Assembly (NCBI GenBank): GCA_028875055.1
Contig: JAPPGG010000064.1
Span: forward strand, 1-64,000
Length of the DNA: 64,000 bases
Reading direction: 5' to 3'
Origin: Chloroflexota bacterium
GTDB lineage: Bacteria > Chloroflexota > Dehalococcoidia > Lucifugimonadales > UBA3495
In this document: piece after piece, positions 4,679 through 11,446 of the stretch
How positions within the stretch are numbered: position 1 is the first letter of the stretch
Layout: every line of letters begins with the position of its first letter
The notes under the pieces: model-generated
Seen by the model: the letters and a program-made list of their open reading frames with translations, nothing else
Databases searched by the model: none
What the model was told of the DNA's origin: nothing
Program-made: the position numbers and the translations under genes

Positions 4679-5368
4679 CTACCGGGTGAGCTCGGGCCAG
4701 AACCTCTCTTCCTTCCAGGGGTCGGCATTGTTGTTGTAGCCGCGCTGCTCCCAGAACCCCGGGGAGTCTTCCAGCATGAGCTCCAGGCCGTTTATCCACT
4801 TGGCGCTCTTCCAGGCGTAGCGGCTGGGCACGATCAAGCGCAGGGGCCAGCCGTGGTCCCTGCCCAGCTCTGCGCCGTTGTGGCGGTGAGCCAGGAAGCC
4901 CTCCTCCAGCACCATATCGAGGGGGAGGTTGGTGGTATAGCCGCCGAAGCAGTGGGCCATGACGTACTGTGCCCGGGGCCTTATTCCGGCCAGTTCGAGG
5001 ACTGTGGAAGCAGGGACTCCCTCCCAGGACTGGTCCAGGGCGCTCCACTGGGTGACACAGTGGAAGTCGGCATCCAGGGTAATCCAGTCCAGTTCGGTAA
5101 ACTGCTTCCAGGTGAGAGTTATTTCCTGGTCCACCACGCCGAAGACGCGGAAGGTCCAGGTACTGATGTCAACTTCGGGCCGGGAACCGTAGGTAAGCAC
5201 CGGAAAGCGCTTGCTGAGGAACTGGCCGGGGGGGACGCGTTCTCCCTGGTGGGGGGCTTCCTTAACCTGGTCGGGGCGTTTCAATCCGAATTGCGGTTCC
5301 AATTTGTTCAACCACCTGTTAATTGACTGGGTAATGCGGGAAGGACTGGAGGCCATATTAGTTTCCAT
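4679..5368 (-). CDS. Sulfite-oxidase-like molybdopterin oxidoreductase (cytoplasmic, YedY-related fold)
   Basis: About 229 residues of the oxidoreductase molybdopterin-binding domain. The likely Mo-ligating cysteine is in DADFHCVTQWS, followed by WEGVPASTVLELAG and the cofactor-binding HGWPLRLIVPSRYAWKSAKW. No Tat or Sec signal and no haem or dimerisation domain are visible, so it should be a short cytoplasmic member. The substrate cannot be inferred. Two moeA genes 5 kb away fit local use of molybdenum cofactor. The start (ATG 5368, alternative 5356) is uncertain because no strong ribosome site is present. Confidence 0.85.
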   Translation of the reverse strand: METNMASSPSRITQSINRWLNKLEPQFGLKRPDQVKEAPHQGERVPPGQFLSKRFPVLTYGSRPEVDISTWTFRVFGVVDQEITLTWKQFTELDWITLDADFHCVTQWSALDQSWEGVPASTVLELAGIRPRAQYVMAHCFGGYTTNLPLDMVLEEGFLAHRHNGAELGRDHGWPLRLIVPSRYAWKSAKWINGLELMLEDSPGFWEQRGYNNNADPWKEERFWPELTR

Positions 5369-5512
5369 CCGTTGCAGTGTCAAACGGGAGTTTCCCGCCG
5401 GGGCAATGGCGTTCTAGCTGAGGGTCAATCCCGGCGAAGTTGAGGGACCTGCAAGGCAGGGCTTGAGGCAATGATCCGGAGTTCAACCAACCTTCCAAGC
5501 CGGAATTTTAGA

Positions 5513-5708: not shown

Positions 5709-6755
5709 CTAGGGGTTGGCGACTATCGTGCCGGCGGGGCCATCCACAATGCGGCCGACCACGCTGGCGCAGGGGGTCCCGGCGGCGGTCAATTCCGCCA
5801 GCAGCCGCTCTTCCTTGTCTCCCGCGACGGACATAAGCAGGCCGCCGGAGGTCTGGGCGTCGCAGAGCAGCAACTGATCGTTGTCCGTCAGGTCGGGGTG
5901 CCAGCGGACAACGTCGGCCACGCTGTCCCGGTTGCGGCCGGTGCCGCCGGGGGCTATGCCCTGTTCCAGGAGTTCCCAGGTTCCCGGCAGGGTGGGCACC
6001 TGGCCCAGGTTAATTTCGGCGCAAACGCCGCTGCCCTTAACCATGGACTTGAGATGCCCCATAAGACCAAAGCCGGTGATGTCGGTGCAGGAGTGTACGC
6101 CCACTTTAGTCATGGCCTCGGAGGCGGCGCGGTTCAGGGCGGCCATGTTGTCCACCGCCCCCTGCAGGACTTCGGGGGAGACCCTTTCCTGCTTGCCGGC
6201 GGTGGTGATGATTCCGGTGCCCAGGGGCTTGCTGAGCACCAGGGAGTCGCCGACCCTGGCTCCGGCGTTGGTGACCTGCCGGCCGGGCTCCACGATGCCC
6301 ACCACCGAAAGGCCGTACTTGGGTTCGGGGTCGTCCACAGTGTGGCCACCCACGATGAGGCAGCCGGCCTCGGCGGTCTTGGAATAGCCGCCGCGCAGTA
6401 TTTCGCCCAGGAGGGCCTTGTCGAGAGCTGCAGGAAACCCGCAAATATTGAGGGCGACCAGGGGCTTGCCGCCCATGGCGTAAACATCGCTGAGGGCGTT
6501 GGCGGCGGCGATGGCCCCGAATTCGAAGGGGTCGTCGGTAATGGGCGGGAAGAAGTCCACCGTCAAAATGAGAGCCGTTTCGTCGTTGATGCGGAAGACG
6601 GCGGCGTCATCGCCGGTTTCGGTCCCAACCAGCAGGTCCGGATGGGAAAGCTGGGGGAACTGGCTCAGGACCTGCACCAGGTCCTCAAGGCTGATCTTGG
6701 CGGCTCAACCGGCGCAGTGGGAAAGCTCGGTCAGGCGGATTTCACTGCTCTGCAT
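5709..6755 (-). CDS. selD: Selenide, water dikinase (SelD), probable selenocysteine-containing form
   Basis: SelD makes selenophosphate from selenide and ATP for tRNA-Sec charging and selenouridine. The uninterrupted frame starts only at 6677, but the same frame continues upstream through one TGA (6707-6705) to an ATG at 6755 preceded by CACAGGAGGCCCC. The added N-terminus reads LTELSHCAG-U-AAKIS. This matches the SelD active site with the UGA exactly at residue 17 and lysine at 20, as Cys17 and Lys20 of E. coli SelD. Read as Sec the protein is 348 residues, the normal length. Other motifs are intact: GDDAAVF, VDFFPP, ANALSDVYAMGG, GGHTVDDPEPKYGL, TDITGFGLMGHL, LLLCDAQTSGGLL. Sec at this position is known in other bacteria. 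No selA, selB or selC is in the window. Confidence 0.92.
6667..6685 (-). promoter_or_regulatory. Candidate bacterial SECIS hairpin in selD
   Basis: Starting 19 bases after the UGA on the selD strand, AGGACCUG-GUG-CAGGUCCU forms a perfect 8-bp stem with a three-base GUG loop. Bacterial SECIS elements are small hairpins within a few tens of bases of the UGA with G/U in the apical loop, so position and loop both fit. Inferred only from sequence. Confidence 0.65.
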
Positions 6756-6861
6756 GGGGCCTCCTGTGGGTTTGGCTGGGCAATTCGTGGGTCTGCTACT
6801 CGATTGTAGCACAAAGGGGACGGGCGCCCGATTCCGGCCATAGGCAGGGAGGCCAGGCGAC

Positions 6862-7345: not shown

Positions 7346-9301
7346 CTACCCAATTTCGGCCTGGACCTGGCCCATGCGGCTGATGTCGTAGCCCCCCAGC
7401 TCATTAACGGCCCGGCGGAACTCCTCGCTGCCCAGCAGGGCGAGCAGGGGGCGCAGCAGGTCGCTTTCGTAGTGGGGCCTCGGGATAACCAGGTCGTATT
7501 GCTCGTTGGCCAAGGGAATGAAATCCAGGCCGAGGGCGCGGGCCGCGCTGAGAATGCCCAGGCCCACGTCGGCAGCCCCGCCGTTCACAGCCGCCGCCAC
7601 GGCCAGGTGGCTGAACTCCTCCCGCTGGTAGCCGTTGACGGACTCGGGGACAGCGCCCAGTTCCCGGAGCTGGTAGTCCAGCAGGACCCGGGTACCGGAG
7701 CCTCGCTGGCGGTTCACGAAGGTAATGTCGGGACGCAGCAGGTCGGAGAGGGACTGGATACCCGAGGGATTGCCCGGCCTGACCATCAGGCCCTGGACCC
7801 GTCCCACCAGGTTTACGAGAACCACCGGAACCTGGGGCAGGTATCTTTCGATGTAGGAGACGTTGTACTGGCCGGTGGCCTCGTCGAGCAAATGGGAGCC
7901 GGCCAGGTGGGCCTCACCGCGCCGAAGGGCCGTCAGGCCGCCCAGGGAGCCGATGTGGGATGAGGAGAGGTTGGCCCCGCCGGGCGAACGCCGCAGAAAG
8001 CTGGACATCAGGTCCAGGGTGAGGTCGTGGCTGCCGATGGCGACGATGGTGTTTTCCACCTCGGCCAGGGGCCGCAGCAGTTCAACGGCCACCTCGGCGC
8101 CGGAGTCCATTCCCTCGGAAAAGCGGGGAATTTTTACCAGGCCGTCGGCGCGGACCAGGGACATTATCACCCCCGCCCCCCGCTGAACCGGAGTGGCCAC
8201 CATTTTTTCGCCGACGCGCCCCAACTTGACCCGCAGAAACTCGTCCTCGCCGGTGGATGAGGTGACCTTGCGGGTTACCTGGGCGCGGACGGTGGGACGC
8301 TGGCTGTCGCCCGCCTGGCCCAGCCAGTGTTTAACCAGGGGCTGCAGCAATAGCTCGGAGGTAAGCATGGCTGACACCGGATACCCGGGCAAGCCAACCA
8401 GGGGCTTGCCGCGGGCCAGGCCCAGGACCACCGGGTGGCCGGGGCGGACGGCAATGCCATGGACCAGCAATTCTCCCAGCTCCTCCACCACCAGGGCAGT
8501 GTAGTCCTCGGAGCCGGCGGAGGAGCCGGCATTGATGACCACCAGGTCGTGGGAGTTCAGGGCTTCAGCAGCGGCGTCGCGGAGGGCTACAAAGGAGTCG
8601 CGGACCGGGTCCACCACAGTGGCCACCGCTCCCCACTCATCCAGCTGGGCGGAGAGCATTATGGAGTTGAACTCCACGACGTCCCCGGGCTTCAGGTCGG
8701 CGCCGACAGGGACCAGCTCGTTGCCGGTGGGAATGATGGCCACGGAGGGACGGCGGCGCACGGACAATCGGGCCAGGCCGGCGGCGGCACAGGCGCCCAG
8801 GTCGGCCGGGGTAAGCCGGTGGTTTTCGGTAAGGACCAGCTCCGTGGCGACAATATCCTCGCCCAGGGGACGCACGTGCTGCCAGGGAGCCACGGGGGCC
8901 ATGATGCTGACGTGGTCATCGCCCACCGTGTGCAGGTGCTCGACCATGATGACGGCGTCGAAGCCCGAGGGCATGGGGTCGCCCGTGTCCACCCACACCG
9001 CCTGCCGCTCGGCGCCGTTGACAACAAGGGTGACGGGGGAGGTTTCGGTGGCGCCGGTGGTATCGGCGGCGCGCACGGCGATGCCGTCCATGGCGGCGGC
9101 GTCGTAATGGGGCGAAGAGGTGGCGGCCCACACCGGCCCCGATGTAACCCGGCCCCGGGCTGCCGTCACCGGAACAACCTCGGGAGGCATGGACTCCAGC
9201 AGCCCGGCGTCACGAAGGGCAGTGAAAAACTTGTCCCGTGCTTCTTCCAGCGGGATGTCGGAAAGGTAGTAGCGTCGCTGGTTTGGCTGGCCCTCGGTCA
9301 A
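7346..9301 (-). CDS. MoeA-like molybdopterin molybdotransferase fused to a periplasmic-binding-like (molybdate-type) domain
   Basis: 651 residues. Residues about 1-410 are MoeA: SPHYDAAAMDGIAVRA, VDTGDPMPSGFDAVIMVEH, the gephyrin-type core GSSAGSEDYT, and GLPGYPVSAML. Residues about 420-651 are a PBP-like domain (VAIGSHDLTLDLMSSFLRR ... RQRGSGTRVLLDYQL ... VAAAVNGGAADVGLGI ... YDLVIPRPHYES) without a signal peptide, so it acts inside the cell, perhaps as molybdate or tungstate sensor. This fusion is known in archaea and several bacterial phyla. MoeA inserts molybdenum into adenylated molybdopterin. The TTG start lies 15 bases after the HAD gene and is preceded by GGGGTGAA, so the two are probably cotranscribed. 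Confidence 0.88.
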   Translation of the reverse strand: MTEGQPNQRRYYLSDIPLEEARDKFFTALRDAGLLESMPPEVVPVTAARGRVTSGPVWAATSSPHYDAAAMDGIAVRAADTTGATETSPVTLVVNGAERQAVWVDTGDPMPSGFDAVIMVEHLHTVGDDHVSIMAPVAPWQHVRPLGEDIVATELVLTENHRLTPADLGACAAAGLARLSVRRRPSVAIIPTGNELVPVGADLKPGDVVEFNSIMLSAQLDEWGAVATVVDPVRDSFVALRDAAAEALNSHDLVVINAGSSAGSEDYTALVVEELGELLVHGIAVRPGHPVVLGLARGKPLVGLPGYPVSAMLTSELLLQPLVKHWLGQAGDSQRPTVRAQVTRKVTSSTGEDEFLRVKLGRVGEKMVATPVQRGAGVIMSLVRADGLVKIPRFSEGMDSGAEVAVELLRPLAEVENTIVAIGSHDLTLDLMSSFLRRSPGGANLSSSHIGSLGGLTALRRGEAHLAGSHLLDEATGQYNVSYIERYLPQVPVVLVNLVGRVQGLMVRPGNPSGIQSLSDLLRPDITFVNRQRGSGTRVLLDYQLRELGAVPESVNGYQREEFSHLAVAAAVNGGAADVGLGILSAARALGLDFIPLANEQYDLVIPRPHYESDLLRPLLALLGSEEFRRAVNELGGYDISRMGQVQAEIG

Positions 9302-9316
9302 AAGAGTTCACCCCGT

Positions 9317-10039
9317 TCACTCAGGATATAGTTGGAGGATGGAACGGATGATTCGGTCGGGAATGGCGGGTGCATTGTCGGGCAGGCCGTTGCCCCGCCA
9401 GTCGATCCAGATACCATAAATTCCCAGGGCCTGGGCGCCGCCCACGTCGGCATAGAGGTTGTCGCCAACCATCCAGGCCTGGCCGGGAGACACCCGCAAG
9501 TTTTCCAGCGTCTGCCGGAAGATGTGGGGGTCGGGCTTGGCAACGCCGAACTCGCCGGCTATGAGTATGGAGTCAAAACATGGCTCCAGGCCTGCCTTTA
9601 CGACCTTGGCGCGCTGGCCATGGGAGTCGCCGTTGGTAATCAGCCCCAGCCTGACGCCGCGATTGCGAAGGGCAATGAGGGTGTCCAAAGCCCCGGGGAT
9701 TACCTCGACGGCGGCCGACTTGAGACGCTGGTAGGCGAGGGACATTTCCTCTATCAGTGGGTCATCGTCGATGCCGAACCGTTCGAAGGCCATGGACAGC
9801 AGTTCCCAGCGCGCGCGGTTGAGGTCCAGGCTGCTCTGACGGATTCGCTCCGGGTCGGACCAGTACCACCGCCGGATTTCCTGAATTACGCCGGATAGTT
9901 CTTCGGGGCTTTCCACGGGCAGACGGTCGGCAAAGTCGTGGCAAACCTGGCGAAAGCACCTTCCGGCGGCCTCGTCGTCGGAGAGGATAGTGTCGTCCAT
10001 ATCGAAAATTATGGCTGGCGGCAGGTCTGGTTTATTCAC
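9317..10039 (-). CDS. HAD-superfamily hydrolase (phosphatase-like)
   Basis: 240 residues with all HAD motifs: nucleophile motif IIFDMDDTIL at the N-terminus, LITNGDSHGQRAK (motif II), the lysine in FGVAKPDPHIF (motif III) and MVGDNLYADVGGA (motif IV). A helical cap lies between motifs I and II, as in the YjjG/Gph group. Substrate unknown; a small phosphorylated metabolite is the usual case. It lies between two moeA genes and reads the same way, but a link to cofactor synthesis is only positional. GTG start after AGGGAAG. Confidence 0.88.
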   Translation of the reverse strand: MNKPDLPPAIIFDMDDTILSDDEAAGRCFRQVCHDFADRLPVESPEELSGVIQEIRRWYWSDPERIRQSSLDLNRARWELLSMAFERFGIDDDPLIEEMSLAYQRLKSAAVEVIPGALDTLIALRNRGVRLGLITNGDSHGQRAKVVKAGLEPCFDSILIAGEFGVAKPDPHIFRQTLENLRVSPGQAWMVGDNLYADVGGAQALGIYGIWIDWRGNGLPDNAPAIPDRIIRSILQLYPE

Positions 10040-10195
10040 CGTACTTCCCTGGCGACTATCAAGGTCTGTAACTGCTGGCTGGAAGCCCCATCATAAACCA
10101 TCGGCGGGCCGGCGGTTGTGCCTTGGGCAACTCCCGCAGGGACATTTCGCCCGTCCGTCCCCTGGTCCTTCGAGGGAGAGGGTATTTCGTAAGGG

Positions 10196-11446
10196 CTACT
10201 GGAACAGCCTCACCACCACCGTCTCGCCGGCGTACAGGCCGGCCTTGTCCAGGGGGACCTGCACCAGGCCGTCGGCGCGGATGAGAGTGAAAATAAGGTT
10301 GGACTTGCCGAACACGGGTTCGGCGACCAGTTCTTCGGAGCCGTCGTGGTCGCGGCGCCTCAGCCTTACCGGAAGGTAGTCCTCGCGGCCCGGGGCGGAA
10401 GCCACGTCCCGGTCCAGCCGCGCCGAGGTTCTTGCCGGTTCCGGCAGGGTGGTACAGCCGGCCAGATGGTACAGGATGGGGTGGACCAGCAGGTCGAAGA
10501 CGATCATGGCGGACACCGGGTTTCCGGGCAGGCCGAAAACCGGCTTTTCATCCACCATGCCCACGATGGCGGGCTTGCCGGGATGGATGGAGAGGCCGTG
10601 GACCAGGACGCCGGGCTGCCCCAGGGCGTTGATGATGTCGGCGGTCATGTCCCGGGCGCTGACGGAGCTGCCGGCGGAGAAGACCAGCGCGTCGGAATTC
10701 TCCAGACCCCGACGCGCGACTTCAAGCTGATCCTCGTAATTGTCGGGGACAATGCCGAGCGGAACGGGTTCGGCCCCGCCGCGAAGGATCTGGGAGGCAA
10801 TGGTGTAGCTGTTGACGTCGCGGATCTGGCCGACAGCCGGCTCATTTTCCGGTGAAACCACCTCGTCACCCATGGAGAGGATAGCAACCCTGGGACGCCT
10901 GGCCACGGGGAGGCTGGTAATGCCCAGGGCGGCAAGTCCGCCGACGTCCTGGGGGCGCAGAAGGTGGCCGCGGGGCAGGATGCTGTCTCCCGTACGAACG
11001 TCTTCGCCGGGCTGGACCACGTTCTCGCCCGGGGCCACCGAGCGAATAACCTCGATGGTGTCCGCGTCAATCTGCTGGGTGTGTTCCACCATCACCACGG
11101 CGTCGGCGCCGGTGGCCAGCATGCCGCCGGTGTAGGTCCCCGCGGCTTCCCCCAGGCTTACCGCTATGGCGGGCGCGCGGCCCATGGGCACTTCGCCCAC
11201 AACGGAAAAGCAGGCAGGCAGCCCCTCAGTGGCGCCGAAAGAGTCGGCGGCCCGGAGGGAATAACCGTCAACCGTGGAGCGGGGAAAGGTGGGCAGGTCC
11301 TGCTGGGAGACCAGGTCGGTGGCGGTGACGCGTCCGAGAGAGTCCTGCGCCGGCACCTCCTCAAGGGCGATGGAAGGCGGTGGCAATACCTTGAGCAAAG
11401 CTGCCAGAGCCCGTTGAGGCGGAAGGACATTGAAGAATTCCGGCAT
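10196..11446 (-). CDS. moeA: Molybdopterin molybdotransferase MoeA
   Basis: 416 residues, normal MoeA length, without the extra PBP domain of its neighbour. Signatures: FPRSTVDGYSLRAAD, TGGMLATGADAVVMVEHTQ, VAILSMGDEVV, the core SAGSSVSARDMTADI, and FGLPGNPVSAMIVFDLLVHP. It completes molybdenum cofactor by inserting Mo. Two MoeA-type proteins side by side may divide Mo/W or MPT/MGD work. No Shine-Dalgarno is visible; TATAAT ends only six bases before the ATG, suggesting a leaderless transcript. Confidence 0.93.
   Translation of the reverse strand: MPEFFNVLPPQRALAALLKVLPPPSIALEEVPAQDSLGRVTATDLVSQQDLPTFPRSTVDGYSLRAADSFGATEGLPACFSVVGEVPMGRAPAIAVSLGEAAGTYTGGMLATGADAVVMVEHTQQIDADTIEVIRSVAPGENVVQPGEDVRTGDSILPRGHLLRPQDVGGLAALGITSLPVARRPRVAILSMGDEVVSPENEPAVGQIRDVNSYTIASQILRGGAEPVPLGIVPDNYEDQLEVARRGLENSDALVFSAGSSVSARDMTADIINALGQPGVLVHGLSIHPGKPAIVGMVDEKPVFGLPGNPVSAMIVFDLLVHPILYHLAGCTTLPEPARTSARLDRDVASAPGREDYLPVRLRRRDHDGSEELVAEPVFGKSNLIFTLIRADGLVQVPLDKAGLYAGETVVVRLFQ

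Follow-up and report, generated by a model that had tools for sequence, protein, structure and literature searches.

A selD gene with a probable selenocysteine codon in a SAR202-type marine Chloroflexota genome, and the overlapping predicted SECIS hairpins within its coding region

How is the in-frame UGA at codon 17 of this selD gene read? The gene lies on a contig of a marine Chloroflexota bacterium, in a stretch of 64,000 nucleotides that was analysed as a whole (the window), and a sequence-only reading had proposed that the codon specifies selenocysteine (Sec) and that the organism makes selenoproteins. As a selenoprotein SelD is well known (PMC13188914, PMC4561486), and the Sec-SelD described here is an already known kind of gene. 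We conclude, with a high degree of confidence, that the window gene encodes a selenocysteine-containing SelD whose UGA 17 would be decoded via SelB and a bacterial SECIS (bSECIS) hairpin. The features concerned are the following, with their evidence in brackets.

5709..6755, minus strand: selD, selenide-water dikinase, 348 aa, with predicted Sec at residue 17 (translation, TIGR00476, domains, 3u0o)
6705..6707, minus strand: UGA codon 17, read as selenocysteine (frame; a single TGA per SelD among the order's listed matches)
6760..6765, minus strand: AGGAGG ribosome-binding site, with 4-nt spacing to the ATG (sequence)
6667..6685, minus strand: predicted bacterial SECIS hairpin AGGACCUG-GUG-CAGGUCCU, with an 8-bp stem and its loop 27 nt past the UGA (fold, bSECIS limits, covariation)
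6675..6677, minus strand: GUG apical loop of the SECIS, identical with the GTG start of standard-code ORF calling (fold, ORF list)

On the minus strand, the start region reads AGGAGG-CCCC-ATG at 6765–6753, the ATG itself being 6755–6753, which bears out the earlier claim that the frame SHCAG-UGA-AAK can be followed back to an ATG with a strong ribosome site. From there the frame continues as MQSSEIRLTELSHCAG-UGA-AAKISLEDLVQVL…, with the UGA at 6707–6705; this is the single UGA in the 348-residue frame, which then stays open until a UAA/UAG stop at 5711–5709. Under the standard code, the ORF is 322 aa long, starts from GTG 6677 and is missing residues 1–26, active site included, just as the sequence-only reading had anticipated for automatic calling.

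The identity of the product is clear from several comparisons. It matches the TIGR00476 selD family over its full length and above the curated cut-off (391.7 bits; cut-off 125), it contains the AIRS and AIRS_C domains, and its residues 2–342 align with residues 2–340 of the E. coli SelD 3u0o (phmmer, E=2.4e-79). In this alignment the UGA of codon 17 stands opposite Cys17 and Lys20 opposite Lys20, confirming that the UGA falls on the catalytic Cys17 position with Lys20 conserved. The closest named public relative is 98% identical; named relatives are marine Chloroflexota, others being labelled Dehalococcoidia or SAR202 cluster.

Molybdenum genes flank selD on both sides (window 4679-5383 and 7346-11446, minus strand): downstream lies a protein with an Oxidored_molyb domain, and upstream a MoeA–PBP fusion and a second MoeA with a HAD hydrolase. 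A search for a molybdoenzyme with Sec gave none.

The sequence comes from a metagenome assembly, and Cys-type SelD occurs elsewhere, for example as 16 TGC sequences in relatives outside the order. The TGA could therefore be suspected of being a sequencing or assembly error for TGC or TGT (Cys). Against this, SelD is found in 171 of the 197 genomes of the order, and exactly one TGA is present in each SelD among the matches listed, a tally that does not extend to the weakest ones. At codon 17, TGA stands in all 109 order sequences read (30 + 79; one locus, L243, did not match the motif filter and was left out), and the SelDs from the same genus keep the TGA in full-length matches of 91–98% identity. 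A Cys codon at position 17 was seen in none of the order's relatives that were read. The alignment that the earlier reading had suggested as a check, with its match to Cys17 and Lys20, also turned out in its favour. Given this agreement among independent assemblies and the maintenance of the SECIS hairpin (see below), the probability of an error is, in our view, vanishingly small. Judged from the genomes sampled, the Sec form of SelD appears fixed in the order. The CxxU motif is present in 125 of its 127 Sec-SelD sequences (C14–U17 in the window SelD), and throughout the order the peptide before the UGA is conserved. Some genomes (G002, G003 and G153) have two SelD copies, both with UGA. Like SelD, selA is found in 171 of the 197 genomes, and at least 12 genomes are without both.

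The hairpin at 6685–6667 belongs to the centroid structure of its region. With its GUG loop, 8-bp stem and 27-nt distance, it lies within the published bSECIS limits (upper stem of 4–16 bp, loop 16–37 nt after the UGA, MFE <= -7.5 kcal/mol; PMC13188914), and in relatives this stem, closed by a GUN loop, scores -11.6. For the window selD as a single gene, the fold outdoes shuffled sequences only moderately (z -1.3) and the hairpin stability against synonymous redraws gives a p of 0.06. This excess stability is modest because coding for the conserved peptide DLVQVL in itself inclines the sequence towards the stem. Across 110 distinct sequences of the order, at least 7 of the 8 pairs are formed in 97%, as opposed to 51% after synonymous redrawing. 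The median z is -1.3 for Sec SelD versus +0.9 for a Cys-type SelD set from other bacteria, mainly Myxococcus and Corallococcus, which is on average less stable than its own redraws. Furthermore, paired codons covary, CUG/CAG becoming CUC/GAG (Gln to Glu) and GAC/GUC becoming GAU/AUC (Val to Ile), where the counts are over related sequences and not over independent events.

The hairpin also bears on whether the UGA might be a true stop, in which case a working SelD would begin at GTG 6677, without the N-terminal catalytic loop. The 322-aa ORF from this GTG does exist under the standard code. However, it is the ATG that has the strong ribosome site, whereas GTG 6677 forms the loop of a hairpin that is conserved; the order-wide conservation of the peptide preceding the UGA likewise speaks against termination, and the shortened form would be without residue 17 and Lys20. 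We therefore give a true stop scarcely any credence, and retain the Sec-containing SelD as the preferred reading.

Where exactly the SECIS sits differs among relatives. In the window selD itself, an overlapping alternative hairpin has its loop 33 nt after the UGA; a script implementing the bSECIS model favours this bulged 33-nt hairpin, whereas the whole-region fold favours the 27-nt one. Among 79 additional sequences of the order, the best single hairpin has its loop at 26–27 nt in 26, at 32–33 nt in 38 and at 20–22 nt in nine, so that the registers (about 20, 27 and 33 nt after the UGA) are spaced by approximately two codons per step. They also overlap, 34 of the 110 order sequences scoring well at both 27 and 33, and register 33 is the one at which 26 of 31 Sec-SelD sequences from other phyla score. 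Codon pairs in the other register are GCG/CGC, GCC/GGC, GCU/AGU, UCG/CGG and ACG/CGU, which encode Ala–Arg, Ala–Gly, Ala–Ser, Ser–Arg and Thr–Arg, respectively. The residues that vary under pairing are 27 and 31 for these pairs, and 26 and 28 for the alternation of L–Q and L–E. We read this pattern as a mobile SECIS that may constrain the SelD peptide DLxQVL. In a limited literature search, we found no paper describing a SECIS register shift of this kind.

Does the genome hold the machinery for decoding? The source genome is a binned assembly of 3.75 Mb in 75 contigs, 98.4% complete with 3.7% contamination, and has the following genes.

Contig 52: selA (450 bits with PF03841, 542 bits with TIGR00474)
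Contig 38: selB (345 bits over the cut-off)
Contig 71: tRNA-Sec (selC) with UCA anticodon (67.5 bits)

Thus, the search for selA, selB and selC that the sequence-only reading had recommended found all three in a 98%-complete genome. Together with selD, they are located on four different contigs of the binned assembly, which we counted against the reading. At L003 1501-1953, minus strand, the tRNA-Sec gene lies directly 3' of a Cys-type trxA (WCGPC) on the same strand. A second SelA-like match, on contig C24, reaches 45 bits, and the other tRNA-Sec candidates that were checked proved to be ordinary tRNAs for Leu, Ser, Trp, Ala or Arg. In a published sponge metagenome, selA and selB were present in most symbiont bins (PMC5649159).

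At the level of sequence, eight further genes with an in-frame UGA at catalytic Cys positions bear out the expectation of a selenoprotein-producing organism. Including SelD, there are at least nine candidate selenoprotein genes, a lower bound since the tally comes from family searches.

L246 966-2450: thioredoxin-fold UGA gene (UxxC or TxxU), fused to NHL repeats
L248 1350-2417 and 2701-3330: two thioredoxin-fold UGA genes (UxxC or TxxU) in tandem
L249 1391-1852: thioredoxin-fold UGA gene (UxxC or TxxU)
L250 1548-1997, minus strand: thioredoxin-fold UGA gene (UxxC or TxxU)
L251 2045-2542: thioredoxin-fold UGA gene (UxxC or TxxU)
L252 1429-2094: thioredoxin-fold UGA gene (UxxC or TxxU)
L247 792-1349, minus strand: AhpD-like (CMD family) candidate selenoprotein, CRYU (strong hairpin just after the UGA)

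Seven of the 11 AhpC/TSA family members in the genome have one in-frame UGA, in each case at the catalytic Cys (FTSGUTT, FTHGUTT, HWUPYC, TIUPVC, STUGQC, YTUINC and YCUINC). Pfam supports the UGA-containing thioredoxin-fold genes, and Cys paralogues coexist with them in the same genome. Seven of the nine UGA genes have a hairpin that passes the bSECIS model, L249 and L252 failing this version of it. Elsewhere in the order, 13 of 14 genomes list at least one UGA-containing AhpC/TSA member. An AhpC/TSA match with two in-frame TGA in a relative (G191:C122:128633-128956) could represent either a protein with two Sec residues or a pseudogene. A codon-usage scan of the window and five stretches of the genome returned frames that were for the most part antisense or overlapping, with no convincing candidate for a further selenoprotein.

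That several genes of the genome carry an in-frame UGA could also be taken to mean that UGA is read as another amino acid, by code reassignment or plain read-through. However, of the 66 long ORFs in the window and in five further stretches of its genome, 25 end in TGA, and UGA is therefore not globally reassigned. Moreover, the other UGA genes have their UGA at catalytic Cys positions, and tRNA-Sec with its UCA anticodon, SelA and SelB are all present. Decoding as an amino acid other than Sec is, in our judgement, very unlikely.

For a UGA decoded as Sec, the following sequence of events can be proposed. Translation would start at ATG 6755, and SelB, predicted to bind the SECIS hairpin at 6685–6667, would deliver Sec-tRNA-Sec to the UGA at 6707–6705, thereby placing Sec at the catalytic position 17. 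SelD would then make selenophosphate out of selenide and ATP, and SelA would put the selenophosphate to use for more Sec-tRNA-Sec. Since SelA uses SelD's selenophosphate to make Sec-tRNA-Sec, selD would depend on its own product. Both Sec insertion at the UGA and the enzymatic activity of SelD are what we infer from sequence comparisons, as is a selenenylsulfide redox pair that C14 and U17 may form.

What maintains Sec decoding in these bacteria? In the published view, it is FdhA or selenouridine that maintains the Sec trait (PMC1794560); the same 2006 survey suggested that, where FdhA is missing, it may be Sec-SelD that keeps Sec decoding in place, perhaps for the sake of selenouridine (PMC1794560). 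In the genome studied here, no Sec formate dehydrogenase was found, the three PF00384 members being without UGA, nor was a selenouridine synthase. We put forward, at about even confidence, a combined proposal: that within one gene and one order the SECIS shifted from one overlapping hairpin to another by about two codons at a time, with the pairing dictating SelD residues, and that the order keeps Sec for thioredoxin-fold enzymes, SelD always being a selenoprotein, the genome tested having neither a Sec formate dehydrogenase nor selenouridine.

What lends this locus extra interest is the fixation across the lineage, a selenoproteome that does not depend on FdhA and the shift in SECIS register, each at the strength given above. 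In practical terms, the reading would correct a selD truncated by standard annotation across a whole order of marine bacteria, as well as many redox enzymes otherwise called truncated or split. A SAR202-type genome that would put Sec in peroxiredoxin- and thioredoxin-like proteins, not in formate dehydrogenase, bears on the view that FdhA or selenouridine maintains the trait (PMC1794560). Furthermore, selD would offer a clean case for how an RNA signal in a coding region constrains protein sequence.

Compared with known systems, the window protein resembles the Sec-containing bacterial SelD (TIGR00476) in that the domain match spans the full length, Sec is predicted in the place of Cys17, Lys20 is present and a bSECIS comes just after the UGA. 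Relative to Sec-SelD at large, the order stands out by its CxxU motif, seen in 125/127 sequences here, compared with ~5.6% of the single-domain Sec-SelD sequences from ocean metagenomes (PMC2398784). E. coli SelD (3u0o) has Cys17 and Lys20 at the same numbers; it differs in having Cys for Sec, and Gly at position 14 where the window SelD has Cys, and therefore has no CxxU pair. Ocean metagenomes have yielded marine selenoproteins of the Prx, Prx-like, Trx-like and AhpD-like families (PMC2398784), which share the TxxU, UxxC and CxxU motifs found in the other UGA genes of this genome. Unlike them, the present candidates are gathered in one SAR202-type genome without a UGA-containing formate dehydrogenase.
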